Virus record (IMG/VR): IMGVR_UViG_3300002460_000012
Coordinates: 1 to 40,294 of that record
DNA: 40,294 bases
Reading direction: 5' to 3' (one strand)
Source: a virus
Part shown: piece after piece, positions 2,364-40,199 of the stretch
Position numbering within the stretch: position 1 is the stretch's first letter
Layout: every line of letters starts with the position of its first letter
Translations under genes and position numbers: made by a program
Notes under the pieces: generated by a model
What the model was told of the DNA's origin: nothing
What the model saw: only the letters and a program-made list of their open reading frames with translations
Database searches by the model: none

Positions 2364-2660
2364 TTAAGGCACAACCGTTAAGGGTGAGGCAAGCCATTGT
2401 GTCCCATCTGGGCTTGACACACATACCGTTAAAACTGATTGAGTAGCGCCTACATATAACAATACATCTCCCCTTTTACCGTTTCTTGAACCATTGGGGT
2501 TAGATGTTACTATCTCCATATTGTTGTGGTGATTATATAGGGTTTTCAAATAAGTCCTTGTTTCAAAATCTTTAATTGGCGGAGGCTCTGGGATTAAACC
2601 TGCCCAACAGTTGTTGACCAACAAAGCTAACAATAATATGGTTTGGATGGTAATTTTCAT
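2364..2660 (-). CDS. Small exported virion-module protein
   Basis: 98 residues with a clear signal peptide (MKITIQTILLLALLVNNCWA, cleavage before Gly). The mature part begins Pro-rich, continues with a helix (ETRTYLKTLYNHHNN) and ends in a beta-rich stretch with a DGTQW motif. The helix-plus-beta plan resembles small proteins next to tail fibres in metagenomic podoviruses, but I cannot name the family. The gene ends just before the fibre-like gene and follows the gp10-like tail gene by six bases. Confidence 0.7.
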   Translation of the reverse strand: MKITIQTILLLALLVNNCWAGLIPEPPPIKDFETRTYLKTLYNHHNNMEIVTSNPNGSRNGKRGDVLLYVGATQSVLTVCVSSPDGTQWLASPLTVVP

Positions 2661-2666
2661 ATATTC

Positions 2667-4331
2667 CTAAATCCTCTGGCTTTCCTCGATATACATCTCC
2701 CACCCAAGTATTACCACCGCATTAGTTACTACATCATTATTATAGAAATTTATCTGAAACATATTCTTACCTTTTTCAATCTCATCACGCCCTACTATTA
2801 CCGTATCGCCTCCCCATAAATCCACATCCCACTCTGCTACATCCCATAAAGACTGCGAACTACTTAATGAGATGTCAACTACCTTACCGCTTGCCTCATA
2901 ATCTGATTTACATTCAGCATGGACATACTCTCCACTATTCGATAAAGCGTAAGTCTTTAATAATCTCCAATATTTATCACCTAATCCCACTTCTGGGTAT
3001 CTATACCATTTAGTCTGGTAAAATGACAATATGGCACTTGAGGCTACATTTCCATCATAATAAGTCGTTGAGGGGTATCTATGGACATATCCAGAATAAT
3101 CTGCGAAATATATGGCTTTATCGCTTGAGTCCCCATCTCCTACACACCAAGCTATTGGGTTTATACCCCTGAATTTAGTCCATGCCTGAAAACTTGTATC
3201 AAAGAGCATTACCCTATTGTTTGACTGACTTGCATCTATTGCTATCGCTGTATAGTAATCATCATCAGCGAACCTATATGAAGAATAATCAAGACCAAGT
3301 ATATAAGGGGCTTGTGCTTTATTTATATTTTTAGTGGTATTTATTATTTTTCTTGATATAAACTGGACTTTATACCCGCCATCATATAGACAAAAATCAC
3401 CTTGTTCGGTAGCGAAGAATATCCCATTGTCAGTGGCTTTTACCGACTCAAATGATAGCGTTCCAACGCTATCAATCATCTTTTCAAGTCTAAAGGTATC
3501 CCTTTCCCATCCAGAAAGTCGCCAGATAGTAGTATCCTTGAATATATAAAGAGCGTCATATGCGCTGACTAAAGCTCTAACCTTTGTTCCATCAGCACTC
3601 TGAACATCAAAGAAATCTGTCGCTGTATAGCCTGTAATATCATCTAAGGCACTAAACCACACCCTTGAAGGGCTTGTATTATTACCTGAAAGAAATAGGT
3701 GATTTTTATGATATTCAACTAATGTCGCATTGGGACAATCTGTATCAGAAGTTAATTGTCGTACGTGATTAGTCCCGTCAAAATAATAGGGTTTATAAGT
3801 ATTAACCCCTATCGTAAATACGCATTTATCTTCGGCTATCGCAAAATCAGCTCTATTTATGCCATCATAAGCCGTAACCCAAGACCCAGCGTTGGAAGGA
3901 ACAGCCCCATCTATCGTTACCCAGTGAGCATTTTCAGGGCCACCGGTAGAGGTATAAGCCTTTCGTTTTATAGTAGGAACACCATCTCTATTGGCTAAAG
4001 CTACAAGAAATCTATCTCCATTATTTAGTTCATAAAAGGATAACCCAGTAACCTCAATGATTGTTCCTGTTGATACTTGGACTGGGCTAAATCCTATATT
4101 AAGAGTCCTAAATCCAGTTCTTTTCCTTAATGCGCCGCCAGTATCAAAGATAAAATTCTGTATATCAGTAGCTTCATTGTCAGCTATCTCGGTGGTAGAG
4201 AGTTGCTCATTTATTCCGCCTTGATTTAAAAAATAGCTATATTTACGCCAAGTTACACCAGCTTCAGAATTTTGGCAAAATAATAAGTTAGCTACTAAAC
4301 CAACGACTAAAAGTAGACGCTTCCAACCCAA
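2667..4331 (-). CDS. P22 gp10-like tail stabilisation/tube protein with signal peptide
   Basis: 554 residues from a TTG at 4331, placed six bases after GAGGAG; no signal-less in-frame start is visible nearby. After a Sec-like signal (hydrophobic core LLLVVGLVANLLF, c-region ending NSEA) comes GGINEQ, then ADNEATDIQNF and GGALRKRTGF. This N-terminal pattern is typical of podoviral tail-hub/stabilisation proteins related to P22 gp10. The rest is beta-propeller-like, with repeated aromatic-glycine blades (for example SGYVHRYPST). It overlaps the 3' end of the adaptor gene by 44 bases. It should plug the head and bind the fibre, so a signal peptide here is remarkable. Confidence 0.75.
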   Translation of the reverse strand: MGWKRLLLVVGLVANLLFCQNSEAGVTWRKYSYFLNQGGINEQLSTTEIADNEATDIQNFIFDTGGALRKRTGFRTLNIGFSPVQVSTGTIIEVTGLSFYELNNGDRFLVALANRDGVPTIKRKAYTSTGGPENAHWVTIDGAVPSNAGSWVTAYDGINRADFAIAEDKCVFTIGVNTYKPYYFDGTNHVRQLTSDTDCPNATLVEYHKNHLFLSGNNTSPSRVWFSALDDITGYTATDFFDVQSADGTKVRALVSAYDALYIFKDTTIWRLSGWERDTFRLEKMIDSVGTLSFESVKATDNGIFFATEQGDFCLYDGGYKVQFISRKIINTTKNINKAQAPYILGLDYSSYRFADDDYYTAIAIDASQSNNRVMLFDTSFQAWTKFRGINPIAWCVGDGDSSDKAIYFADYSGYVHRYPSTTYYDGNVASSAILSFYQTKWYRYPEVGLGDKYWRLLKTYALSNSGEYVHAECKSDYEASGKVVDISLSSSQSLWDVAEWDVDLWGGDTVIVGRDEIEKGKNMFQINFYNNDVVTNAVVILGWEMYIEESQRI

Positions 4332-5403
4332 TGGTCGCTCCTCGTTTTATCCTATCCGCTGATTTTCTTCCATACTTTCTATCGGGGGCAAAACTGCCTA
4401 TCTTTAATTTCATCTGTTGTAAGCCATTCAAAAATCTTGACTCATATACATTTTCAGCCTTATTTATGTCGCCCTTCTGACTTAAAATTTCGCTTAACGC
4501 ACCCCATATTAAAAGATGATGATAGTCAGGTGGCATATCGGGTGAGTCATAATCATTCACTAATGGAATGGGAAGCCTGAAATACCTATAATAAAGATGT
4601 CTTGCGGCATTAGGAATGTTGTAAAGTTGAACTACAATATTATCAAGAGGAATGACATAGCTTGCCCCTGCGGTTACTGTAACAGTTTCATATATGGTGA
4701 TTTGGGTATCAGAGTCTACCGTATTAACTGTATACCAATTAGACCCAACTCGTATGCGTGAACGCTTCGTAATGCCTATTATGCTTGACCAAGCTGTCCC
4801 AGAACCTGTTACCGTAGATGTCGCTATACCGAGCGTTCCTGTTGTATAGGTTTGGGTGTCATTACCTACATAAATCGAATAATATGGGTCAGAGAGGGCC
4901 TGCGGGGTAGGAAATAACTCATCGAAGTTTTTAGGAAGTAAGTCTATTGTAAGTAAGCCATTCTGAATTTGCCTAAATGATTTGTATTTATCTACATCAG
5001 CATTAAGACGGTATTCATCTTGAAATATGGAATAGGTTTGTTCGGTAGCGGTGCTACCTTGATATGCTTTATCAATAGTAATACTTGTATCTCCACTTCT
5101 GGCAGTAATCCTGTAATAAGGTTTTTCATTCGCTATTCTTATTTTCCTGCCAACCATAGCGGCAGTCCATACGGTAGTTGTCCCGGATATGGTGGTTGAA
5201 CCATTAGTAACATCGGCTGTTCCCGTAGAGTAATCGTCAGTAGTCGTCAGAATACCATTTCTAAAATCAAGATAAAATGGCCAGTCGTGGAACTGATATA
5301 CTCTATTTAGTGCCACCTGTATCATAGCATTTACCAATGTCCTTTGGTCTTTGACATTGGAAATGTTTTCTACATGAGTCGCCACATCCACACGACGCAA
5401 CAT
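4288..5403 (-). CDS. Head-to-tail adaptor (gp4-like) with duplicated beta domain
   Basis: 371 residues. The N-terminal helices (about 1-50, ALNRVYQFHDWPFY) and C-terminal helical part (about 285-345) match the layout of phage adaptor/connector proteins that bind under the portal. Two related beta-sandwich segments are inserted, at about residues 60-127 and 188-251, each with a Thr/Gly-rich strand, a T-x-W turn, R-I-R strand and a 'DTxITI' strand. It follows a small conserved virion protein and overlaps the gp10-like gene, the usual order portal-scaffold-capsid-adaptor-hub. Confidence in the adaptor role is good; exact family is not confirmed. Confidence 0.7.
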   Translation of the reverse strand: MLRRVDVATHVENISNVKDQRTLVNAMIQVALNRVYQFHDWPFYLDFRNGILTTTDDYSTGTADVTNGSTTISGTTTVWTAAMVGRKIRIANEKPYYRITARSGDTSITIDKAYQGSTATEQTYSIFQDEYRLNADVDKYKSFRQIQNGLLTIDLLPKNFDELFPTPQALSDPYYSIYVGNDTQTYTTGTLGIATSTVTGSGTAWSSIIGITKRSRIRVGSNWYTVNTVDSDTQITIYETVTVTAGASYVIPLDNIVVQLYNIPNAARHLYYRYFRLPIPLVNDYDSPDMPPDYHHLLIWGALSEILSQKGDINKAENVYESRFLNGLQQMKLKIGSFAPDRKYGRKSADRIKRGATIGLEASTFSRWFSS

Positions 5404-6610: not shown

Positions 6611-7768
6611 TTAGAGCTTTTCAATAGCGCACCAACCTGTCAAACCAAGAAGGGCTATTGTGGGAACTTCCATTGGAAACGAACCTAACATAAACAAAAG
6701 AAATGTTAAAAACATTGTAAAAAAACAATTCCCAATTTCTTCTTTATATGAATAATTACGAATAGAATTTATAATAAGTAAAACAAATAAAAACACCCCT
6801 AAAATCCCTATTTCCACTAAATATTGAAGCCAGTCATTATGAACTTCATACCATATAGACCTTCCAACTTCATTTTGGGTAACAATATGGAGAGTGGAGA
6901 AAAATCCTATCCCTAAACCAAATAAAGGATTATTTTTAAATAGTTCAACTGTTTTCAGCCATAAATCAGCTCTACCACTCATAAGGGTAGATAATTTCAT
7001 CAAGTTGTGCAATAAACCCGTGTATATAAGAATAAGGATTGTAGCAAAAGATGAAACCAACAATCCCAATCTGACCCATTTGTATTCTCTAAATTTAAGG
7101 AAAGCCCATACAAGTAAAGAGAATATAGAACAAAACCAAGCGAAATGAGACTTAGATAAATATATGGTAAATAAAGATATGGCAAGACCTGCCCAATACA
7201 AAGGTCTCTTAAAATATAGAAACATTGGAATAGTCAATCCTAAATACATCCCTATCAAATTAGGATTATCAAGACAGGCTGACATGCGGTTATCACACCT
7301 ATATTGAACATGTTGTTCCCATAAACCAGGAAAAGTAGCCTTGAGTGGGTCAAAACCAAAGTATTGTAAGAGAGAAAAAACAGAGATTAAGACACTTGAG
7401 ATACACAGAGCTTTAGCTATTCTTATATAATCATCTTTTTCAAATATAGATAAAATACTCAATATAGTCATAATACCTAATGATATATAAATAAAAGGCA
7501 CTAACATATAAAGAGGCGCAGGCTGAACCCTCGCTATATTAAAGAAAATGTAAAAGAAACAGCTTAAAAATAGATAACATATAAAATTAGACAGATACTT
7601 ATTGTGATAAGTATTAGTCAACCCTTTTCGTAGAGCCAAAATAATCATACCCATAAAGATAAATATAAGAAACATGCCTTGTGGTATTCTAAACTGATTT
7701 TGAACTCCCGGTGCAGGATTAAAAATCCACGGCTGAATTAAAAGACATAAAACAAAGAAAGTAGTCAT
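6611..7768 (-). CDS. O-antigen ligase/polymerase-like membrane protein (Wzy_C type), copy 1
   Basis: 385 residues with about ten hydrophobic segments. The signature periplasmic loop is present: SGRADLWLKTVELFKNNPLFGLGIG, split here as SGRADLWLK and FGLGIGFF, followed by VHNDWLQYLVEIGILG. These are typical of the Wzy/WaaL superfamily that polymerises or ligates O-antigen on the periplasmic side of the inner membrane. The gene is a cargo gene between capsid and tail genes, on the late strand. By analogy with phage D3 seroconversion it may alter the host surface to block superinfection. It is preceded by a hairpin (7780-7806) that may damp its expression. Confidence 0.8.
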   Translation of the reverse strand: MTTFFVLCLLIQPWIFNPAPGVQNQFRIPQGMFLIFIFMGMIILALRKGLTNTYHNKYLSNFICYLFLSCFFYIFFNIARVQPAPLYMLVPFIYISLGIMTILSILSIFEKDDYIRIAKALCISSVLISVFSLLQYFGFDPLKATFPGLWEQHVQYRCDNRMSACLDNPNLIGMYLGLTIPMFLYFKRPLYWAGLAISLFTIYLSKSHFAWFCSIFSLLVWAFLKFREYKWVRLGLLVSSFATILILIYTGLLHNLMKLSTLMSGRADLWLKTVELFKNNPLFGLGIGFFSTLHIVTQNEVGRSIWYEVHNDWLQYLVEIGILGVFLFVLLIINSIRNYSYKEEIGNCFFTMFLTFLLFMLGSFPMEVPTIALLGLTGWCAIEKL

Positions 7769-7820: not shown

Positions 7821-8369
7821 TTATCTCTCTCCTATCCAAGCCCAGTAAAGACTCGCTGGTTCACCGCCAGCGGCTGTCCTACCGCTAATACTATTATCTT
7901 GCGTCTGCGTTCCAGAAAGCAGAACACCGATAATAGATGAGGTTGCGTTAGCGGGTGTATTCGCCACTCTACCAGATGTAGTAGATGTAGCGACCGTATT
8001 ACCTGCTGCCGCAAGACCCTGCGTGGTAGTAAACCATACTTTGTGAGGCCCTCGGACACATATCTTACCTATTGAGTTATCTTCAATAACTTCATCAGTT
8101 ATACCTAACGCTAACGAACTACCTTCGGTTGTAGTCCCAGTTATATACGCACCGAGCGTAGTTCCACTGGCTACATTTGCCGCCGTAGTATCAAGGATAA
8201 CCACCGCATTTGAAGTTATATCCGACCCACTGTTATTATAGGCATAGATATATACATCGAGTTCCCCTATCTGAATATCGCTTGAATAAGCGTTCGCCCC
8301 TATCTCCGCATAAGCGGAGGAAACCAATAGAAGCGTAGAAATGAAAAGAAAAACAAATAGTTTTTTCAT
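7821..8369 (-). CDS. Exported protein directly downstream of the major capsid gene
   Basis: 182 residues. A classical signal peptide (MKKLFVFLFISTLLLVSSAYA, cleavage before Glu) leads a Thr/Ser/Gly/Ala-rich, beta-type mature domain. The ribosome site is AGGAGATAGA before ATG. The gene starts eight bases after the capsid gene ends, the usual place of a head decoration or fibre protein. Signal peptides are not expected on such proteins. Function is inferred from position. Confidence 0.75.
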   Translation of the reverse strand: MKKLFVFLFISTLLLVSSAYAEIGANAYSSDIQIGELDVYIYAYNNSGSDITSNAVVILDTTAANVASGTTLGAYITGTTTEGSSLALGITDEVIEDNSIGKICVRGPHKVWFTTTQGLAAAGNTVATSTTSGRVANTPANATSSIIGVLLSGTQTQDNSISGRTAAGGEPASLYWAWIGER

Positions 8370-8377
8370 TCTATCTC

Positions 8378-9370
8378 CTATGAGTCTCCGCCAGAAGTCC
8401 TGCCCTGGCGATTGAGGTTATTGCAAACCAAGTTACCTGCCCAATACAATCTACCAACCAGAATATCCTGATTGGTTGGAGCTATGAAATCCCTGATTGT
8501 CATATCCCTATCGGCGTGAACAAGTAGTTTAAAATACTTGAGGTTTAACATGTAAAGAGTATTCGCAGGCTGAAAACCGTCCGCCAATACTGTCGCCCCG
8601 TGGAAATTGATAGTCGGGAAGTCAACATCTCCCACTGTAGGTTCTTTTCCCCTGTAATCATAATTGATTGTCCCTGTCAACGCCGTCAGAAGATTGGCGA
8701 AACCAGAAGCAGTCATCGTAACTACCGTAGGTATTTCATCTCCTCTTGTCAAAAGGACAAATAGGCTTCTCATCGAGGTCAAACCATTGGTAGCAAACGC
8801 CGTTATGGTAGTCCCCAACTGATGCCTCCAGAAGCTGTAAGTTGCCCTCGACAGTGTTCCTACCGTTCCCGTTGTCGCAGATGTGGTCAGATAGGTTTGT
8901 AACCCCGTTATCCCTAAGTCGCTGTCAGCCTCATCGGACATAATACCGATAGATGTTCCTGCCATGTCATTCTTTGCACTCTCTTGAGCCGTCTCAATAA
9001 GAGTTTCAAGATAGTTGACTATGGCGGTATCATCGCTACCGGAGTTTTTAAGAAGGTTAGTTCCGGAAACCGTTATAGCCCAAGTAAGATGCTTTCTTTC
9101 ATAGATAGCAGTCGTTACCGGGTCGGCCTCAACGGTATCACCAAATACCGTTGCGCCAGTATAAGCAGTTCCAGTCTGTAGCTCCTTAAATACCGGAAGC
9201 CAATATTGTCTGCCGCCGGATTCATATTCCTTATGCCCCATCTTGTTTAAGAAATGAAGCAGTGGAATACGGGCAGTAATATTGTCCGCAATCTTCTGTG
9301 CGACTTTAGGATTGGTCAGGGTATTTATGGTCGTCAGTGATAACGACGAAATCGAATTAGGATTCGCCAT
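8378..9370 (-). CDS. Major capsid protein
   Basis: 330 residues. Position directly after an acidic scaffold-like gene, size and composition fit a phage coat protein. Features resembling phage capsid families with an HK97-type fold are an N-terminal helix (LTNPKVAQKIADNITARIPLL), a GGRQYWLPVFKEL strand region (E-loop-like area), and a C-terminal segment where FKLLVHADRDMTIRDF and LVCNNLNRQG end the protein. No signal peptide. HK97 fold assignment is inference; the capsid role is well supported by order portal, scaffold, capsid. Confidence 0.8.
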   Translation of the reverse strand: MANPNSISSLSLTTINTLTNPKVAQKIADNITARIPLLHFLNKMGHKEYESGGRQYWLPVFKELQTGTAYTGATVFGDTVEADPVTTAIYERKHLTWAITVSGTNLLKNSGSDDTAIVNYLETLIETAQESAKNDMAGTSIGIMSDEADSDLGITGLQTYLTTSATTGTVGTLSRATYSFWRHQLGTTITAFATNGLTSMRSLFVLLTRGDEIPTVVTMTASGFANLLTALTGTINYDYRGKEPTVGDVDFPTINFHGATVLADGFQPANTLYMLNLKYFKLLVHADRDMTIRDFIAPTNQDILVGRLYWAGNLVCNNLNRQGRTSGGDS

Positions 9371-10941: not shown

Positions 10942-10952
10942 AAATCACCTCC

Positions 10953-11177
10953 TTAAAATCGTTGTCTTGCGAAATTTAATATCCCGCCTTTTGCCGGTTG
11001 AACAACATTTCCCTTAAAATCATTTACCAATCCTTCGGCGATTTTTAACATTCCAAAAGCTAAAATCTTATTTTGTATCGGGCCGGTTATGGTAATTCCT
11101 CCATTTGGTTTAAGGGTAATAACTAAACTGACTTCCTGCTGTTCCTGCGTTTCTATTTTTACCTGTTCTTCGCCCAT
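10953..11177 (-). CDS. Small conserved head-operon protein
   Basis: 74 residues. An acidic, Gln-rich start is followed by strands around SLVITLKPNGGITITGP and a helix ILAFGMLKIAEGLVNDF. The strand-strand-helix layout resembles small phage proteins found next to portal genes. It overlaps the 3' end of the zinc-ribbon gene by 19 bases, implying coupled translation. No function can be assigned. Confidence 0.6.
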   Translation of the reverse strand: MGEEQVKIETQEQQEVSLVITLKPNGGITITGPIQNKILAFGMLKIAEGLVNDFKGNVVQPAKGGILNFARQRF

Positions 11178-11518
11178 CTATACGCATCCTCCACGGCTTC
11201 GTGAATGTTCCTCTTTGAGGTTTCTCTTAAATTTCTTTCGTGATTTCTCTGGACTACTTCCATATCTTTCTTAGAAGTATCATCATGTTTATTATGCTCT
11301 TTAAGAAATCTCCTCCATTGGCTCTTTCCCCGTATCTCAACTGGTTGCCCAGTTACATGAATTGATGTGAACTCCCATAATTTGTCTTTAGAAGTGTAAA
11401 AATTACCTCCGAAGGAGTTTATGGGAGGGATTTCCTCAAAACATTTCCCGCACAAGATTTCCCTGTTATATCTTCTGATAGTGATTACTTCACCGCCACA
11501 TTTACTGCACTCTCTCAA
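11159..11518 (-). CDS. Zinc-ribbon protein (FmdB-like N-terminus)
   Basis: 119 residues. CSKCGGEV and ILCGKCFEE form a four-Cys zinc ribbon near the N-terminus (about residues 4-26). The remainder is helical and basic, with WRRFLKEHNKHDD in the middle and a charged C-terminus. Similar proteins lie next to phage portals. It overlaps the portal gene stop by four bases (ATGA). A role in DNA or protein contact during head assembly is plausible but unproven. Confidence 0.65.
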   Translation of the reverse strand: MRECSKCGGEVITIRRYNREILCGKCFEEIPPINSFGGNFYTSKDKLWEFTSIHVTGQPVEIRGKSQWRRFLKEHNKHDDTSKKDMEVVQRNHERNLRETSKRNIHEAVEDAYRWAKNR

Positions 11519-13539
11519 GTCCCTTCCCCTCCGATTTCTCTACCCTTTGAGGACACTCCCATATTGGCGATGGATTGAAGAATATCCCCTTCATCAGTAA
11601 TGCCCTGTCTTGTTATTTCGGGATTAGTGGATTGAGTCGGAGGCCTCCTATCGCCTGCCTGCGGTTTAATTCCCATACCCATATATTTACCATGTTCAAG
11701 TATGTGCAAATCCACCATTTCTTTTCCTGCCGCTTCCTGATGAGCCTGGATATGAACCGTATGATTTTCATTTGGAGAAACAAGCTGTGGCACGCCGGAA
11801 ATAAGGAGTTTATTTTCTTCCATAGCCACTCTTATTTCCTCATCATCATTAGATAAGATAATCTTATCCACATCTTTTACATATTTGAATGTTTTAAATG
11901 TTAATCTTAACGCCTCATCCTTTTTAAGCCTTTCAGGGGCTATTGACCCAGCGATAGAAATGGCATCAAGCCACTGCTTTCTATCAACAGTTTCGTCTTT
12001 AGGCGGGGCAGTAGAACCAGCGTCAATCCTGAATTGGAGTTCTGCCTTGATTATTCTACGCCTATCATTAGGATTATCTGGAAGCGACGGCCACATATTC
12101 TCCGTAACGGGTTTTCCTATTATCTCTTGAACTTTCTCTTTCGGATAGAATTGCCAAGCAAGTTGAGCCAAAGCTCTCGCCACGCCTACGGTAAAATCCT
12201 CGACCACATCAACCCTTGCGGAAGCCTTTAATTGGAGTCCAGATTGGGCGATCGTGGCTTGAGCCGCCGTCCTCTGGCCCGGTTGGGCCTGGAACATGAG
12301 TTGGCCCATATTTGTCCCCATTTGCAAGTCTTGTTTAATCAAAGCGTCCACATTATAGACATCAGGCGGAAGTGAGGGAATAGTCATGCTCTGAACGCCC
12401 TGTAATGAAGGGACTACGATTATCTGAACACTTTCATTTTCTTCGAGTTGATTTATCTGTTCTTCCGTATATAGCCCGTTTTGGACTAAGATGATAGCGT
12501 TGGCTCTTTTACGGTGTTTAACCATCATAGTCCTTGAACTGGCTTGTTCTAAAATAAGAGGGAAGATTGGCGTGATAGCGTTTACAGGATACGGGTTGGA
12601 CTCATCTTCCTGCGGCAAGGTTTCCTCGAAGATTAGAGGTTTATACGGGAAACCATCCATATCGTAGGGCCAATCTCCCTCAAAATGAATATCGTTATCG
12701 GAAAAGGTAAGTCTCTTTTGTTCTCTTCTATCCCAGGCGTGGTAAAGCCTTAAAATCCTATTCTCATCATCCTCATAATTTCCTCTGTCATTGGAGTAAG
12801 ATGGTTTTTTAATTTGGCTTGAGCCGTCTTTTTCTGAAATCTCTTTAGTTCCTTTAGCCTTATCCTTATTTTTATAAAGGGGATTTGATTTAAAATCCAC
12901 CATAGACACATCTTCTATTTCTATCAACCAAGGCATTTTACCTATTTCATGATACCCCGGAGGCATAAGCATGGCGTGGGAAGGAAGCCAGGAAACAAAG
13001 AGAGAGTATTCTTTAATGTTCAAATCGAGTATGCCCTTTTCCTCAGGAAGAAGATTCTTTTCTTCTTTAAGTCTACCGAGTAGGGCGTTCTTAATATCTT
13101 TAATCAAACTCTTTTGATTTATTTCATCTAACTTTGAGACATCTTCTTCTATCTTGGCGGTATAGCCTAATTTTAACCACCCCGGCGGAGTCAGGAAGGC
13201 CGATAGAATCGCTTTTTTAAATTGTTGTTTAAGGCCAAGCTCTCTCCATTCGTAATTGACTACTTCTTCCATAGTCTCGGCAAAACCCTGGGAAGACCCG
13301 TCAATGTCTCTTGCCTTGATAAACATATAGGGGTCTCTAAAATACACAAGAGGGACTAAATTCGAGACATACCAGTTAGCAAAATGGACATCTACTCTCT
13401 CTGGGTCTACTCCTCCATAAAGTTTCTCAAAGAACTTGCAGTTATAAAGGTCTATGGAATTTTTCCAGATATTTTTCTGTTGCGACTGGACTCCTAAAGC
13501 CTTTTCTTTTCTTCCTATCCAAATATTGTGTTCGCTCAT
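11515..13539 (-). CDS. Portal protein
   Basis: 674 residues, close to the large portals of P22-type phages. It follows the large terminase by one base and precedes the scaffold/capsid set. Typical features are N-terminal helices with aromatic residues (WYVSNLVPLVYFRDPY), a central beta wing, the long MGTNMGQLMFQAQPGQRTAAQA region resembling the helix next to the tunnel loop, and a Gln/Glu-rich C-terminal part. It should form the dodecameric DNA channel at the unique capsid vertex. Confidence 0.85.
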   Translation of the reverse strand: MSEHNIWIGRKEKALGVQSQQKNIWKNSIDLYNCKFFEKLYGGVDPERVDVHFANWYVSNLVPLVYFRDPYMFIKARDIDGSSQGFAETMEEVVNYEWRELGLKQQFKKAILSAFLTPPGWLKLGYTAKIEEDVSKLDEINQKSLIKDIKNALLGRLKEEKNLLPEEKGILDLNIKEYSLFVSWLPSHAMLMPPGYHEIGKMPWLIEIEDVSMVDFKSNPLYKNKDKAKGTKEISEKDGSSQIKKPSYSNDRGNYEDDENRILRLYHAWDRREQKRLTFSDNDIHFEGDWPYDMDGFPYKPLIFEETLPQEDESNPYPVNAITPIFPLILEQASSRTMMVKHRKRANAIILVQNGLYTEEQINQLEENESVQIIVVPSLQGVQSMTIPSLPPDVYNVDALIKQDLQMGTNMGQLMFQAQPGQRTAAQATIAQSGLQLKASARVDVVEDFTVGVARALAQLAWQFYPKEKVQEIIGKPVTENMWPSLPDNPNDRRRIIKAELQFRIDAGSTAPPKDETVDRKQWLDAISIAGSIAPERLKKDEALRLTFKTFKYVKDVDKIILSNDDEEIRVAMEENKLLISGVPQLVSPNENHTVHIQAHQEAAGKEMVDLHILEHGKYMGMGIKPQAGDRRPPTQSTNPEITRQGITDEGDILQSIANMGVSSKGREIGGEGT

Positions 13540-27343: not shown

Positions 27344-27522
27344 TTCACTCTCCTTTTCCATAGGTTTTTATATATCTTTTGAACTATTTTAATACCCCTT
27401 GCCTGAATATTATTCGGTTTTTCAGGCGTGCTATCCAGATACATTCCAAGCGCAAACCTCAATCCTGACCTTTGAATTGGGCTTAATCTTAATAAATATC
27501 TTTTAGGTTTTTTATCTTTCAT
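27340..27522 (-). CDS. Small basic protein
   Basis: 60 residues, strongly basic at both ends (MKDKKPKRYLLRLSP, IYKNLWKRRVK). It overlaps the transglycosylase stop as ATGA. Probably nucleic-acid binding, from charge alone. Confidence 0.6.
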   Translation of the reverse strand: MKDKKPKRYLLRLSPIQRSGLRFALGMYLDSTPEKPNNIQARGIKIVQKIYKNLWKRRVK

Positions 27523-28097
27523 CTTCCATATCCAGGCTCGACTTTTTCCATTGAGCCATTTTTACTTTTATACTGGAATTGTTTAGCGTGTTCTTTAACT
27601 GACAAATATATTTGCATTACATCCCGAACATAATCCCTCGTTTCTTTTGGCATACGGCTTACATCATAGTTCACATTACGAAGTCGTGTTATCCCTCCAT
27701 TATAGGCCGCCAACATCCTTTCAATCGTGTATTTGTCTTTTAGGTAATGGTCTTTGAGGCGGCGAAGATACCAAGTGCCGACGAATTTATTAGTTGTAGA
27801 ATTAAATAAATCACTATATTCTTTGTCGCTTCTTAAAGTTCCTATCCAATTTCTATGTAGTTTAGAAAATTCTTCACAACACCAACAGGTTCGTCCATAG
27901 GTTTCTTTTAATTCTTTAAATACAATCGGTGTTATCTGCATAAGCCCTATCGCTCCTTTGAGGGATATGGCGTTGGGATTTCCATTACTTTCAATTTTTA
28001 TAATGCAAGATAGAAGTTCATCCTCTATCTCATCGGCCCCGCACATAGAGGAGTTTAAAAGGATACAGAATATGGTTAATATAAGAGTTTTTATCAT
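27519..28097 (-). CDS. Secreted lytic transglycosylase (SLT fold)
   Basis: 192 residues. Residues 1-21 are a Sec signal (c-region SSMCGA before Asp). The SLT signature is clear: KIESNGNPNAIS with catalytic Glu36, GAIGLMQITP and AAYNGG (130-135). It cleaves peptidoglycan glycan strands, either as the endolysin or as an entry or remodelling enzyme. Its signal peptide lets it reach the periplasm without a holin. It starts TAATG-coupled to the end of the HNH gene, in the early unit rather than with the holin-like genes. Confidence 0.85.
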   Translation of the reverse strand: MIKTLILTIFCILLNSSMCGADEIEDELLSCIIKIESNGNPNAISLKGAIGLMQITPIVFKELKETYGRTCWCCEEFSKLHRNWIGTLRSDKEYSDLFNSTTNKFVGTWYLRRLKDHYLKDKYTIERMLAAYNGGITRLRNVNYDVSRMPKETRDYVRDVMQIYLSVKEHAKQFQYKSKNGSMEKVEPGYGR

Positions 28098-32709: not shown

Positions 32710-32720
32710 TTATTCCTCCC
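32695..32720. repeat. Imperfect direct repeat, copy A
   Basis: 26 bases (ribosome site and first codons of the 118-residue gene). Copy B at 33158-33183 matches at 23 of 26 positions. They flank the acetyltransferase gene. Confidence 0.7.
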
Positions 32721-33129
32721 TTTTAATATATACCCTATGCGAGTATTTATACCCTGCCTTAGTAAAAGCTTTTCTTGAAGCTATATTCTTATCTAATATC
32801 TCAGCGACTATTTTCTTAGAATATATTCTTTGCAACTTGTTCGTTCCTTGTTTGATGATTTCTCTGCCTATGCCTTTATCTAAGAATCGTGGGTCTAAGT
32901 TGACGCTTACCGATATATATGACTCGACTTTCCATCTGAATTGCCCCAGCATTACTTTATGCTCATTCTCGGCTATCAGGATATTATTCTTGTTTTTATT
33001 GAACCATTTTCTATGATTCGCCAAACTGACTTTGTCTGTATTAAAAAACCACTTTCTTATTCTATGGTCGTTCCTCCACTTGAATAAATCATTACAGTCT
33101 CTATTTTCCGCCTTACGAAGGCTTATCAT
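32710..33129 (-). CDS. GNAT acetyltransferase, sugar-amine type
   Basis: 139 residues. LRKAENRDCNDLFKWRNDHRIRKW at the start and LDPRFLDKGIGREII (acetyl-CoA binding loop, GxG) with NIASRKAFTKAGY in the last third are typical of GNAT enzymes that acetylate amino sugars in surface glycans (PseH/FlmH-like). It follows the second O-antigen ligase-like gene, suggesting joint surface-glycan change. It lies inside a partial duplication of a gene start. Confidence 0.75.
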   Translation of the reverse strand: MISLRKAENRDCNDLFKWRNDHRIRKWFFNTDKVSLANHRKWFNKNKNNILIAENEHKVMLGQFRWKVESYISVSVNLDPRFLDKGIGREIIKQGTNKLQRIYSKKIVAEILDKNIASRKAFTKAGYKYSHRVYIKREE

Positions 33130-33172: not shown

Positions 33173-33183
33173 TTATCCTTCCC
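33158..33183. repeat. Imperfect direct repeat, copy B
   Basis: Near-copy of 32695-32720 (23/26). It includes the end of the O-antigen ligase-like gene and the remnant start codon. Confidence 0.7.
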
Positions 33184-34276
33184 CTAAATTTTTAACTTCC
33201 CACCAGGCAAATAGACATATTATCAGGACTGATAGTGAAAAGTGATTGAAGTAATTATGGAACATTATTCCGAAAGGCACTATGGCGAGCGAACCTGCGA
33301 GGGTTGGGTCAATCTTAAACCTAAAAAATCTCTTAAAGGCATTTACAAAAAGCCACACCATCAGGGCTATTCCCCAAAGACCCATTTCTACGCCTCGCTC
33401 CAAGTAATCGTTCCACCCATCTGTCATAGTTCCCCAATTTCCTGTCTTATTATTTACGAGGCTCGGGCCGACGAGCTTGAATGTCCCAACCCCCCAACCT
33501 GTATAAGGTTTAAGCATGATGGTCGTTAAGAATTTACTCTCAAGCTCAATGCGTGAATTTAGTTTGTATTTAAAGGTGAGAATGGGGTTATCGGGTTTGT
33601 GAAGCAGGAAGATATAGGAGACGAGTCCTACGACGACAGCAAGAACCAAAACAATGGCGAATAATCTCCTACTGAGAAAATAACTTGTAAACACACAGGC
33701 GGAAAGCATAAGCCCTATACACGCCCACGAAAGAGAGCATATACAAAGTAATCCCGATATAATGCCTAATATCTTTTTCTTGAATAAAAGTAGGGGGGTA
33801 ACTATCGCCATCCACGCTCCGAAAACATACTTGAACCCGAATAACCCTACCATAGCGGTGTTATGCTTTCGCGCTTCATTAAGACATATAGGATCATGTC
33901 CGGTAGCTTGAAGTAAAACCATGACAGCATTTAAGATTATAACCCCGTAAATAGCGGGTAATATGCCCCTAAAATCCGAATAATTAGCCACTAGGTAAAA
34001 TAAGAGTATGCCTAAAAAGATATAGACTAACGCTAGTATCGATGTGGGTAGAACATTGGAAGGCACAAAGAAAATAGTTATCAACGCCAATGCGGGTAAA
34101 ATATTCAATATAGGATTTATAACCCAACGTTTTGGCTTCATATAAAGCGATGAGATAAAAAGCAGAGGTATGCCTATCTTGTAGACAAGTTCCTGTGTTT
34201 CGATGAAAGAGTGTCCTACCTGATAAGCGGTAGCTGTAAAGAATATTAAGCACCCAAGTATGATTTCAAATATCAT
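33173..34276 (-). CDS. O-antigen ligase/polymerase-like membrane protein (Wzy_C type), copy 2
   Basis: 367 residues with about ten hydrophobic segments. The periplasmic signature is YTGWGVGTFKLVGP, followed by GWNDYLERGVEMGLWG. This is distinct from copy 1 at 6611-7768, so it was acquired or diverged separately. It should act on O-antigen at the periplasmic face. With the adjoining acetyltransferase it forms a two-gene surface-modification cassette, recalling the wzy/O-acetylase pair of phage D3. Its ATG overlaps the end of a gene-tail remnant (ATGA). Confidence 0.8.
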   Translation of the reverse strand: MIFEIILGCLIFFTATAYQVGHSFIETQELVYKIGIPLLFISSLYMKPKRWVINPILNILPALALITIFFVPSNVLPTSILALVYIFLGILLFYLVANYSDFRGILPAIYGVIILNAVMVLLQATGHDPICLNEARKHNTAMVGLFGFKYVFGAWMAIVTPLLLFKKKILGIISGLLCICSLSWACIGLMLSACVFTSYFLSRRLFAIVLVLAVVVGLVSYIFLLHKPDNPILTFKYKLNSRIELESKFLTTIMLKPYTGWGVGTFKLVGPSLVNNKTGNWGTMTDGWNDYLERGVEMGLWGIALMVWLFVNAFKRFFRFKIDPTLAGSLAIVPFGIMFHNYFNHFSLSVLIICLFAWWEVKNLGEG

Positions 34277-34949: not shown

Positions 34950-35258
34950 TTAATTTGGCTCTACCTCTGCATGGGTTCCAACCCAATTCTTCTGTATCAT
35001 TTTCTTAATTATTTTATCATCTACACTGAGTTGATATTTTATATATTTTCTTAACTGCTTAGTTTCTTCCCTATCATCTTTTTGGTCTTGGTTTATCTTA
35101 TCGATTATCTTGTTTAACTTTTGAGCTATTTTGTCATGGTCTTTTACGTCATCAATTGTTACGGGAGTTATCTCAGCAAATACTAAATTAGTAGACATTA
35201 GTAAGATAGTAATTGACATCGTTATTACAATAACAATCGTAAATATCTTATTCAGCAT
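34950..35258 (-). CDS. Exported/membrane coiled-coil protein, HNH-altered end
   Basis: 102 residues from ATG 35258 (an ATG at 35267 is also possible and overlaps the tail-fibre end). A signal or anchor (IFTIVIVITMSITILLM, ending LVFA before Glu) is followed by an acidic coiled region (KIAQKLNKIIDKINQDQKDD). The C-terminus is WVGTHAEVEPN. Similar in layout to the proteins at 32087 and 32353. Confidence 0.6.
   Translation of the reverse strand: MLNKIFTIVIVITMSITILLMSTNLVFAEITPVTIDDVKDHDKIAQKLNKIIDKINQDQKDDREETKQLRKYIKYQLSVDDKIIKKMIQKNWVGTHAEVEPN
34956..34976. repeat. Direct repeat flanking HNH gene, copy B
   Basis: Encodes THAEVEP at the end of the signal-peptide gene, ten bases beyond the HNH stop. 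Partner of 34276-34296. Confidence 0.7.
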
Positions 35259-37668
35259 AGACCCCATATCCTCTTAATGTCCTCGCCGTAGAACCACCCA
35301 GCGAAATCTTGGTTACCGCGTTTGACCCTGAAGGCTGGGAAGTTACGCCTGTCATTGCTCCCCTGTAATAACCGCTTTCCCCTATTTTAGTTATAGGATG
35401 ACAGTCGGTAAATGTAGTCCCGCCGTCTCTTGAAACATCAAGCTTCAGATAAGTATGTTGATCACTTGTAAAAGTGGAATCCATTTTAACTGATACACCC
35501 ATATGTGTAGGCACATTCGGCAAGGGATGAGAAATTGTATGTAAGTATCCAGAGGTAGCCGCGTCTCCCCCATATTCAGACGTAGGGGCTGTAAAGTTTG
35601 AGGTATGGCTAGCCGTACCTTTTATAATGTGCATTTCATCTATCCATCCATTAAAATAATTTGACGAGCCTGGAGAATAAAACCCCGAAGTTAATGCGGC
35701 AGATATATCCGTTAAATCATTTGCACCGAAACTAACCGTTGTTGTTAACGCTAAAGATGTCCCATCTAAAAATATAAAAGCAGACGAGCCAGAACGCACG
35801 AGTTCAATATGATGCCATTCATTTACATTGATAGCTGGAACGTCTGTCGTAACAAAATCAGCCTTATCAACCGAACCTATCCTGGCATAAAAATACAAGT
35901 GATGCGTGGAGTCTTTATAAAATTGATAGCGATTATTTGCGTCCGCAAGTTGTCCTACAATTATTTGACTTCCAGTCATATCGTTAAATCTGACCCAGCA
36001 ATCAATAGTAAAATCACCTGTGCCAAAAGTCCAATCCGCACTGTCGGGAACAGTAATAGAATCACTGTTTCCATCTAATAATAATGAAGCAGTTCCGAAT
36101 TTTTGTTGTGCTGTATCAAGTTGCGCTGTTCCTGCAAATGTTACGGTTCTAGCCCCTGTATCTTCGGTTGTATATGATGTTGCTCCATCTGCTCCATTAA
36201 AATGTATTAGTAATGTCCCAGCAGGTTCACCAGGACTTAAAGCATATTCGTATGTCGAAGCTCCCGTAAAAGACAAGTCGGTTTTTTGACTGACCCCCGT
36301 TTGGTCTACAAAACCATCTACTATCACATTTCCATAGTTTTGATATGAGGAGAGAACATGTCTTAATTGCTCTACTCCCTGAAGGGCTTGGGGAGAAGCG
36401 AGGGTTTGGAAAGTATACCCCCCGCCGCCGCCTCCAGATGAATATTCAGGATGTTGATGATTAGAAGTCAACACTCCACAATTCAAAGTGCCATTGACAT
36501 CGAGTTTATATCCTGGAGTTGTTGTCCCTACACCGACATTCCCATCGGTATCAATTCTCACCTTTTCGGTCGTCGCCGCACCGCTTGTCATTGTTTTAAA
36601 TACTAGGGCCCCTGCCTCTGTTCCTGCCCCAACTGCGGTAGCTATACCCTCAATGGTAGCTACCACTTCGTTATTGCCGGCGGAGGTTTCAACCTCAAAT
36701 TCTTGCCCTGCGCCGATATTAGCGGCAGGAGTGCCTGATGTGGTATGAGTAAGTCTCAAACCTTGCGTAGTAGCGTTCGTTGTTGCGTCATCGGTCTCGG
36801 AATGGATACGCCTATCAGGGGAAGCTGTTCCAACCCCGAAAAGACTGTCGGTCGTTAATACTCCTAACGTTGTATATCCTGCTGAATATTTACGGAAAAT
36901 GAACCCTGCGGCCCCGTCAGCTGTGAGATACCAGTTACCATCGATGTATGGCATATAGGAGTCAGCGGAGCTTGAGCCAAAGATTGCGATACCCGAAACC
37001 CCGGTCGTGTAATTAAGAGCGTAAGTGGCGTTATTAGGGTTACCATTAAAGGCAATCTTTTTATTTGTTGTATCAAATTTAACCCAATCAGTTCCATCCG
37101 CTTGGGCGATATTGATAGCGGTGGTAGAGTTAGCGGAAGGGCGGATGTCCCCCCCCTTGCCTACTATAACATTCCCCGCTTCGATTCCGCCTGAAGTAGC
37201 AACATGTTGAGAACCAAGATTAACGGTAGAAGTAGCCCCAGTATAAGGAACATAAGCAGAATGAATATGTGTTGAGTAATCAGATAAAGGCGTATATTCA
37301 GGGTGAATGTTATCAATACGAGCCGTATAGTCGGGATGGAGATGAACTGAATAATCTGTTAATGGGGTATATTGAGGGTGAAGATGAGAGGTTGAACCGC
37401 TACCGCCAGTTGCGTCATCTTTAAACCATAATCTTTCGCCATCGGTTGACAAAACCTGACTTGAAGCACCACCCAAATTTAGTATTGATACACTTGCCAC
37501 TCCACCAGAAGATGACACTAAACCTTTATCAAATAGTATTTTATAAGGGTAATTAAGATCAGTATCATCTACTTCAGCTACACCTAAACGTTTAGTATGT
37601 TCAAAAGTTTGTGAATAACAGGTGGTAGTTATAAGTAAAAAACATATGCTTAATGCTATCTTTTTCAT
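35248..37668 (-). CDS. Tail fibre with LamG domain and signal peptide
   Basis: 806 residues. Residues 1-19 look like a Sec signal (c-region TTCYS before Gln). About 95-140 holds repeats of HP-D/E-YTPL type. The middle has tail-fibre signatures (GIGTASPDRRIHSETD, GNVGVGTTTPGYKLDVNG). About 484-693 is a concanavalin/LamG-like domain (LLLDGNSDSITVPDSADWTF, WHHIELVRSGSSAFIFLDG, NGWIDEMHI), likely sugar-binding. It is the probable receptor-binding protein. It follows the 436-residue ejection-type gene. Confidence 0.8.
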   Translation of the reverse strand: MKKIALSICFLLITTTCYSQTFEHTKRLGVAEVDDTDLNYPYKILFDKGLVSSSGGVASVSILNLGGASSQVLSTDGERLWFKDDATGGSGSTSHLHPQYTPLTDYSVHLHPDYTARIDNIHPEYTPLSDYSTHIHSAYVPYTGATSTVNLGSQHVATSGGIEAGNVIVGKGGDIRPSANSTTAINIAQADGTDWVKFDTTNKKIAFNGNPNNATYALNYTTGVSGIAIFGSSSADSYMPYIDGNWYLTADGAAGFIFRKYSAGYTTLGVLTTDSLFGVGTASPDRRIHSETDDATTNATTQGLRLTHTTSGTPAANIGAGQEFEVETSAGNNEVVATIEGIATAVGAGTEAGALVFKTMTSGAATTEKVRIDTDGNVGVGTTTPGYKLDVNGTLNCGVLTSNHQHPEYSSGGGGGGYTFQTLASPQALQGVEQLRHVLSSYQNYGNVIVDGFVDQTGVSQKTDLSFTGASTYEYALSPGEPAGTLLIHFNGADGATSYTTEDTGARTVTFAGTAQLDTAQQKFGTASLLLDGNSDSITVPDSADWTFGTGDFTIDCWVRFNDMTGSQIIVGQLADANNRYQFYKDSTHHLYFYARIGSVDKADFVTTDVPAINVNEWHHIELVRSGSSAFIFLDGTSLALTTTVSFGANDLTDISAALTSGFYSPGSSNYFNGWIDEMHIIKGTASHTSNFTAPTSEYGGDAATSGYLHTISHPLPNVPTHMGVSVKMDSTFTSDQHTYLKLDVSRDGGTTFTDCHPITKIGESGYYRGAMTGVTSQPSGSNAVTKISLGGSTARTLRGYGVYAE

Positions 37669-37875: not shown

Positions 37876-39186
37876 TTATCTTTCGCCCACACCACCAATA
37901 GTTCTTAATGCCCCACCAACTGCTATGCCCTCTGCAGTTATTAAACCCGCACGTTTAAGAAAATTTTTAACTCCTCGCAATGTTTGTATTCCCCTTATTC
38001 TGGATATTACATCATTCATTTTTGGTTCAATTTCAGCGAGTCGTTTTAATATTTCTAATTGTTCTGTCCCCTTGACTGCCCCAAGCAATTTTGTGGGAGA
38101 GGGGATTGTTTTTGAAATTCCTTTGGTAAGTTTATCTACTGAAGAAGTAATATCGTATACCTGCTCAGCAACTTGATTAATGGCATCTAAATATCCTCTT
38201 TCTGCCTCCATTCCTGCTCCTGTCAAACTTTCGTCTATTATCTTGTCAAAATCAAAATATGACTTTCTTAACCTTGCTTGCTCTGGAGCAATCAACTCTG
38301 ATTTTTGTCCCCACTTAATATGTTTACTAATAGTGTCTTTTATTTTATACACAAGCCCAAGATTTGCTTTTGGAGGTTGTTCCTTGATAATATTACCCAT
38401 ATCATCCATAAATTCTTTTGGTAATATTGCTTCTCCGACTATTTTTTCGCCTTTTTTAGTTGTGCCATATAAATCATATAAAACTTGATTTGTTTTACGA
38501 TAGTCTATTGGCACATTTGCAGTTTCATTTCTAAATGCTTTGTAATCATTTTGAATTTGTCCTTTAGCAGATTGCCCTAAAGCTTTTGTTTCTTGCGCTA
38601 TATCAAGTGCTGATTGGTGGTCGGCTTTTGCCATTTTTTGCGGAAAATTGGTTATCCATTGACGATACTTGTCATCAAATTTTTTGCCTACCCCAAAAGC
38701 CAATGCTCCAATGCCCGCTTTAAGTCCTGTTCTGTATTGTTCAGGGGTAGTTCGTCGTGCTAATTCTCCCGTAGTTCCAATCGCTCCCATTATCGGTTCA
38801 GGAAATCCAAGTAGTTGTTGTGGTATTTTTTCTACATACCCCTTACTAATATCTGTCGCTTTTTTAACTTCTGGAATGTCTAATAATTGTGTAGCCCCTA
38901 CTCCCATAAGTGTTCCTATTGGGTTCATTACTGCCATTGTAGCACCCCCTAAACCCATAAACTGAGAAAATCCTCTACGAGGGTCTTCTATTGCGCTTCT
39001 GCCAGCTATACTTCCAACCGCCCCTGGAATATTACCAGACAGAATTTGTCCAATTTCAATTGGGTTAATAAATGGTTGTTTAGGTTTTTTTTGAGTAATA
39101 ATGGTAGGTTGTGATACTTCTTCTCCGCTTTGAGGTGTCCATTCTTCAACTATCGGTGTTCCTGATTTAGGTGTCCATTCAGCCAT
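37876..39186 (-). CDS. Putative ejection protein 2
   Basis: 436 residues from ATG 39186, overlapping the previous stop as TAATG; a GTG at 39195 is less likely. N-terminus repeats EWTPKSGTPIVEEWTPQSG. Gly/Ala-rich amphipathic stretches (IPGAVGSIAG, LGGATMAVMNPIGTLMGVGA) alternate with coiled helices, as in podoviral DNA-ejection proteins that cross membranes. No signal peptide. Role inferred. Confidence 0.65.
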   Translation of the reverse strand: MAEWTPKSGTPIVEEWTPQSGEEVSQPTIITQKKPKQPFINPIEIGQILSGNIPGAVGSIAGRSAIEDPRRGFSQFMGLGGATMAVMNPIGTLMGVGATQLLDIPEVKKATDISKGYVEKIPQQLLGFPEPIMGAIGTTGELARRTTPEQYRTGLKAGIGALAFGVGKKFDDKYRQWITNFPQKMAKADHQSALDIAQETKALGQSAKGQIQNDYKAFRNETANVPIDYRKTNQVLYDLYGTTKKGEKIVGEAILPKEFMDDMGNIIKEQPPKANLGLVYKIKDTISKHIKWGQKSELIAPEQARLRKSYFDFDKIIDESLTGAGMEAERGYLDAINQVAEQVYDITSSVDKLTKGISKTIPSPTKLLGAVKGTEQLEILKRLAEIEPKMNDVISRIRGIQTLRGVKNFLKRAGLITAEGIAVGGALRTIGGVGER

Positions 39187-40199
39187 TATTTCCACCCTTG
39201 TTTTCTTGCTTCTTCAATTTCAGGGTCGCCTTCATCCCATTGATGAGATTTCCCAGAAGGAGACATTAAGGTAATTTTATCACTAACCCCTAAATCTTTT
39301 TTAGACAAACTGCCAATTTCCAAATATTGATTTAATCTATTTATATCATATTTTTTGTCTTTGAACTCTTTATATTTTGTGTTTATTCTTTTATCAAGTT
39401 CACCCAATTTAGCCGCATAAACAGGGTTATCTAATAATCCTGCTGATTTAGCATCTCCATATATCTTTTTTCTGACATATCCCAATCCTGCAATGGTTTT
39501 TACAATTCTTGTATCATCTGGGTCATCTTGCAATGGAACAAACCTTTGAGCTGTTTTTTGTTCAGGAATGGAAAAATTTCCCACATCTCCCAATCCTTTA
39601 ACTATCTGTGGACGTAAGGCATCTAATTGGGAAGAAGCTGTGGCGGCAAATGGGTCAAGTCCTAAAGCTCCAGCAACCCCATATTTTAAACCTTCAATTT
39701 TTCCTGCTGGCCCAGCTGAAACTGGAACAGTTTTTAAAAGGTTATCAAATTGGTCTAATATTGGAGTTAAACCTGCAAGTCGTTCTATCCTATCAGATAC
39801 TTTTTTCTTTATGTCTACATCTACCGCTTGTGCTGTTTCTGCTTCAGGCGTCTGTCCAAATTTAACTTTCAAATCTCCTGAAATAGGGTCTAAATCATAA
39901 CCTGTAATACCTATGCCTGATTTTTTTTCAGCCCCACCTAAAGTATCTCCAGCTTGCAATATTTTTATAAATTCCGTAGCTTGTCCTAATTTAGTTTTAG
40001 CAGTTTCTAATTCAATGTCTTTTTTAATCTTTCCTTTCTCTCTCTCAAATACTAACTCTTGTTCTCCCTTCATCCGCATTTCACGCTCTTTTTGTTTTCT
40101 TTCAGCATAGGATTGAGCTATCTGTCCAAATGCTTCGCCAAAAGCTCCTATACCTTTGCGTGCGCCTTCGTAGGTAATTCCAAACGGGTCAGAGGTCAT
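39186..40199 (-). CDS. Putative ejection protein 1
   Basis: 337 residues. N-terminal coiled-coil (about 30-80, Lys/Glu/Arg-rich), helical middle (ILDQFDNLLKTVPV), and a C-terminal small motif MSPSGKSHQWDEGD that recurs at ends of phage virion proteins. It overlaps the 240-residue gene as ATGA across the circular junction. Likely an internal virion protein; no catalytic motif seen. Confidence 0.7.
   Translation of the reverse strand: MTSDPFGITYEGARKGIGAFGEAFGQIAQSYAERKQKEREMRMKGEQELVFEREKGKIKKDIELETAKTKLGQATEFIKILQAGDTLGGAEKKSGIGITGYDLDPISGDLKVKFGQTPEAETAQAVDVDIKKKVSDRIERLAGLTPILDQFDNLLKTVPVSAGPAGKIEGLKYGVAGALGLDPFAATASSQLDALRPQIVKGLGDVGNFSIPEQKTAQRFVPLQDDPDDTRIVKTIAGLGYVRKKIYGDAKSAGLLDNPVYAAKLGELDKRINTKYKEFKDKKYDINRLNQYLEIGSLSKKDLGVSDKITLMSPSGKSHQWDEGDPEIEEARKQGWK

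Follow-up and report, generated by a model that had tools for sequence, protein, structure and literature searches.

Why should the gene for a tail nozzle begin with a signal peptide for export by the Sec pathway? It is usually assumed that a tailed phage is put together entirely in the cytoplasm. The question is raised by the window analysed here, a 40,294-base IMG/VR record of a podovirus-like phage that encodes an SU10-type adaptor, a PHROG 9953 capsid protein and a terminase large subunit. The region under study is the last part of the structural operon, which runs on the minus strand.

Relatives were collected by nozzle, capsid, ligase and decoration queries. The window and seven of them (L004, L010/L023, which are one virus, L011, L012, L021, L025 and L038) make up the clade of uncultured short-tailed phages discussed below, in which nozzles share 40-55% identity with that of the window. 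Totals per protein class vary across the clade because several records are fragments, and counts of signals are not independent, the eight viruses being mutually related. The window record looks circularly permuted. Its ejection-like gene at 1-729 is cut by the left end, and the usual downstream neighbour of that gene, in the order found in L004, lies at the right end (39186-40199). A search for tRNA genes found none. The L038 contig sits in a Sulfuricurvum MAG, the only one of 397 Campylobacterota genomes with a close match; Sulfuricurvum was set aside as the host, since this single match may be a binning error.

A predicted Sec signal on the tail nozzle

Signals were called with a home-made rule-based predictor, not SignalP; the rule scores a positive n-region, a hydrophobic core of about 10 residues and small residues at -3/-1. 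Ten well-known Gram-negative signals served as reference and score 5.5-8.6. Shuffled N-termini are scored as signals in 0.4% of cases, and none of 118 control coding sequences is, the controls coming from phages that are relatives, related-nozzle carriers or ligase carriers. By this rule the outer virion proteins described below score 4.8-10.1, with the n-h-c organisation of a von Heijne-type Sec signal. A lipoprotein-signal reading was rejected, as inspection by eye found no fitting lipobox.

The nozzle gene (2667-4331, minus strand) starts with a TTG that has AGGAG 6 nt upstream and is located within the adaptor gene (4288-5403), 44 nt before its 3' end. Its signal-coding part spans 24 codons (4260-4331, minus strand), the first 44 nt of which overlap the adaptor gene end. 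The encoded signal, MGWKRLLLVVGLVANLLFCQNSEA^GVTW, has an n-region, a hydrophobic core and an A-x-A-type site, with a predicted cut after residue 24. The sequence-only reading had described a full signal with its own ribosome site and a TTG start inside the adaptor gene, and both coordinates and translation proved correct. It had also seen no signal-less start; indeed, the TTG is the sole ATG, GTG or TTG within the first 50 codons. The window and L038 nozzles have one usable start each, and a hidden signal-less start was rejected because no clade nozzle has a start with a ribosome site at its mature end. Nor is the signal a by-product of gene overlap: nozzle and adaptor genes of the clade overlap by 53, 50, 44, 41, 4, 4 or 1 nt, and the signal is kept in all, including those with 1-4 nt.

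On sequence criteria, the product of 2667-4331 can be firmly assigned to the T7 gp12 / P22 gp10-type nozzles. The clade profile matches the signal-less nozzle family with 98.9% probability (E 1e-17, hhalign), and the matched proteins are annotated 'phage stabilization protein' or 'head closure'. As in this family, the gene sits behind that of the adaptor (PF24175). The best Foldseek match of a low-confidence model (pLDDT 50) is the phage VP1 portal-tail 8zkk_O (E 3.9e-8), and the T7 tail is also among its matches. Compared with the earlier label, 'gp10-like tail protein', T7 gp12 / P22 gp10-type nozzle is the better name.

Several insertions were observed in these genes and around them. In the 765-aa nozzle of L012 (4150-6447), the C-terminal half is enlarged by an insert of about 200 aa; this stretch and the laminin-G part of the large fibre in the window match the same PHROG. 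Additional ORFs, at least two of them HNH-like, lie between or behind nozzle and fibre genes in L025 (16561-17310), L038 (16664-17308) and L004 (9269-9742), as if mobile endonucleases settled around these genes. In L004, the capsid gene (381-2027) is interrupted by an insert with a homing-endonuclease-like ORF, possibly an intron.

Signals on outer virion proteins and their absence from the core

Three genes next to the nozzle gene, at 2364, 1427 and 1059, had also been said to carry signals, and our rule agrees. They encode, all on the minus strand, a small 98-aa fibre-base-like protein (2364-2660), a fibre-like protein (1427-2353), whose start is corrected from the TTG at 2374 to the better ATG at 2351-2353, and a 119-aa protein (1059-1418) with a weak tail-fibre assembly match (PHROG 8746, E 0.0017). 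A signal on this last, weakly identified protein would fit if fibres fold outside the cytoplasm. Three more predicted signals had gone unnoticed, at 7821-8369, 35248-37668 and 34950-35267. The gene at 35248-37668 (minus strand) encodes a large fibre-like protein with a laminin-G domain. The one at 7821-8369 (minus strand) lies directly behind the capsid gene, as it does in all clade records holding that stretch, and the L038 copy of its product has a weak virion structural PHROG match (E 0.007); we call it decoration-like, its identity being taken mainly from position.

Across the clade, signals are found on 8/8 decoration-like proteins, 7/7 nozzles, the small fibre-base protein in 6/6 viruses, 10/10 fibres and 4/5 large fibres. 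Altogether 35 of the 36 outer virion proteins in the eight viruses have one, the exception being the large fibre of L012. None of the 70 core proteins of the same viruses does (terminase, portal, scaffold, capsid, coiled coil, 111-aa protein, adaptor, GNAT and ejection proteins A-C). In the window, the signal-less set includes the adaptor (4288-5403; PF24175, 37.8 bits vs a cut-off of 27), the major capsid protein (8378-9370; phrog_9953, E 1e-39) and two ejection-like, internal virion proteins (37876-40199; synteny with Mx9 and ctMlz233), all on the minus strand. A Fisher test of outer against core proteins gives 3e-27, a value that is descriptive only, the viruses being related. The split follows the place in the particle, as read from synteny with Mx9-like phages: what is inside or built first has no signal and what is outside has one. 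For the decoration-like, small and ejection-like proteins, the virion role is assigned from synteny and weak similarity. The letters of the signals diverge within the clade, while the n-h-c architecture and the -3/-1 site stay; in the closest pair, L012 and L021, every change in a signal is conservative.

Sequence comparison thus supports genuine signals of conserved architecture on the nozzle and the other outer virion genes. The earlier claim of 'exported tail parts' stands as far as the nozzle and outer genes carry signals with ribosome sites of their own. Its scope has shifted: the set consists of outer particle parts and includes the decoration-like protein, and the adaptor, head and ejection-like proteins are without signal. 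Our searches of the open-licence literature turned up no account of tailed phages whose virion proteins systematically carry Sec signals.

Origin of the nozzle signal

Fifteen outgroup nozzles, among them those of MaAM05, HMO-2011, Mx9, L013 and L029, have no signal and start at the point that matches the mature clade nozzle. It follows that the signal was added in the window clade to an older, signal-less nozzle and was retained there. The sequence-only reading had proposed that homologues starting in the mature region would count against the signal. Such homologues exist in the outgroup only, and every clade nozzle has a signal; their distribution places the gain of the signal in time and is no argument against it. 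The distant L029, with a capsid 28% identical, has signals on decoration protein and fibre and a signal-less nozzle.

A predicted glycan ligase behind the decoration-like gene

In six of the eight clade viruses and in L029, the gene that immediately follows the decoration gene encodes a polytopic protein of the Wzy_C superfamily, which comprises O-antigen ligases, polymerases and O-oligosaccharyltransferases. In the window (6611-7768, minus strand) it passes the PF04932 gathering score with 65.6 bits vs 31.7. Its model (pLDDT 73.8) has WaaL (7tpg) as best match, with a Z score of 18.4 over 333 residues, ahead of RodA and FtsW at about 10. This match came from a second look with VIA-align; Foldseek alone gave no good match, and a PDB sequence search gave nothing. 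Arg266, His310 and Asp312 are conserved, the His being of the catalytic type. NCBIfam OTase models did not match, and the superfamily sequence does not discriminate between WaaL, Wzy and PglL.

In L029, the pairing recurs at 10951-12549, with a signal-bearing decoration gene and a Wzy_C-like gene below the Pfam cut-off, and is accompanied by a signal-bearing fibre and a signal-less nozzle. This pattern links the signals more closely with a periplasmic glycan enzyme than with tailing. L012 and L021 have signals and no ligase behind the decoration gene, both records being fragments. In Halomonas phage YPHTV-1, an O-antigen ligase is encoded among the tail genes and virion signals are absent, which indicates that the enzyme can do without exported virion proteins. 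The window holds a second, weaker Wzy_C-like gene (33173-34276, minus strand), in which Trp replaces the His of the HND motif. It adjoins a gene for a PseH-like sugar N-acetyltransferase (32710-33129), and the two are a possible glycan cassette. N-glycosylation by a PglB-type host enzyme was rejected, as the exported proteins show no enrichment of D/E-x-N-x-S/T sequons. Disulfide folding was likewise rejected as a reason for export: cysteines vary, and are few in many proteins of the set.

Proposed assembly across two compartments

We propose, with roughly even odds (a probability of about 0.5), that the outer virion parts are exported by Sec, stored in the periplasm and joined to filled heads when the inner membrane has opened. 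The decoration-like protein, nozzle, fibre base and fibres would be Sec substrates bound for the periplasm; capsid, portal, scaffold, adaptor, ejection-like proteins and terminase would remain in the cytoplasm and yield DNA-filled heads. Both sets could meet when lysis opens the inner membrane, or earlier at a local breach, making tailing and decoration the last steps, outside the cytoplasm. On their way, the exported proteins may be modified by the ligase whose gene follows that of the decoration-like protein, and such glycosylation is a plausible reason for export. Four elements are supported by sequence: the signals exist, their architecture is conserved, they were gained on a signal-less nozzle, and they divide outer from inner proteins cleanly. 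Export, cleavage, meeting place and timing are inferred from these. One point against the proposal is that a signal-bearing nozzle must dock on a signal-less adaptor, so that the two would have to meet outside the cytoplasm, a step that is not known from tailed phages. The signal-less large fibre of L012 and nozzle of L029 count against it too. In its favour, the likely endolysin, an SLT-type lytic transglycosylase (27519-28097, minus strand; PF01464, 67.8 bits), carries a Sec signal as well, which is in keeping with export of phage products through Sec in this virus.

Modification might instead be the purpose of export, with late assembly as its consequence: the Wzy_C protein would be a PglL-like O-oligosaccharyltransferase that attaches host-type glycans to the exported virion proteins in the periplasm and gives a sugar-coated particle. 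The position of its gene behind a signal-bearing decoration gene, the WaaL fold with its conserved residues, the second Wzy_C protein with the PseH-like acetyltransferase, and the Ser/Thr content of the exported fibres (24-31%, one copy 22%) all speak for it. However, the family also holds LPS ligases and O-antigen polymerases, the signals of L012 and L021 occur without a ligase at that place in their fragment records, and YPHTV-1 combines a ligase among tail genes with signal-less virion proteins; we regard this reading as unlikely.

The hydrophobic segments could also be uncleaved or slowly cleaved anchors, with heads docking at the cytoplasmic membrane to receive tail and decoration, much as filamentous and membrane phages assemble at a membrane. 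We give this little credence, because a short hydrophobic core that is followed by an A-x-A-type site and a polar mature start is the usual mark of a cleaved signal, and because the mature domains would by topology face the periplasm. Exported proteins that act against superinfection are known from phages, and fibres and laminin-G domains could bind surfaces; the exported proteins might thus have a role outside the virion, by coating the surface, blocking receptors or acting as decoys, or the particle might be built from a second pool that is not exported. Yet no second copies of nozzle or decoration protein and no signal-less start were found, and neither protein has an evident surface role, which makes a function of this kind rather improbable. 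That the signals are mispredicted, or are non-functional hydrophobic N-termini, is conceivable with a home-made rule in place of SignalP, but very hard to reconcile with their presence on five families of outer genes across the eight viruses and on 0/70 core and 0/118 control proteins.

Assembly across two compartments, if correct, would define a lineage of tailed phages with cytoplasmic filled heads, Sec-exported outer parts, possibly glycosylated by a WaaL-fold ligase, and completion after the inner membrane opens; we put this statement at slightly less than an even chance. A lineage with export signals consistently on outer and never on inner virion parts would make such assembly testable. 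Export would offer the phage a route to glycosylate or disulfide-fold its surface proteins, and a signal peptide is no ground for excluding a gene from the virion.

Comparison with known systems

Mx8/Mx9-like podoviruses (Myxoctovirus, BUCT555, ctMlz233) have a capsid relative at about 30% identity and the same gene order: capsid, decoration, adaptor, nozzle, GNAT and internal proteins. Unlike in the window clade, none of their tested virion proteins has a Sec signal. The nozzles of T7 (gp12) and P22 (gp10) have the nozzle domain in common with the clade by profile and, in a low-confidence model, by fold; the clade nozzle has in addition a signal peptide of about 20-29 residues. The window ligase resembles the WaaL / Wzy_C superfamily by a Pfam match over the cut-off and by a WaaL-like fold, but differs in being encoded in a phage structural operon. 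Virion proteins made with Sec signals are familiar from filamentous phages, in the coat proteins pIII and pVIII. Filamentous virions, however, are extruded, whereas the phages of the window clade are tailed and have a DNA-packaging head.
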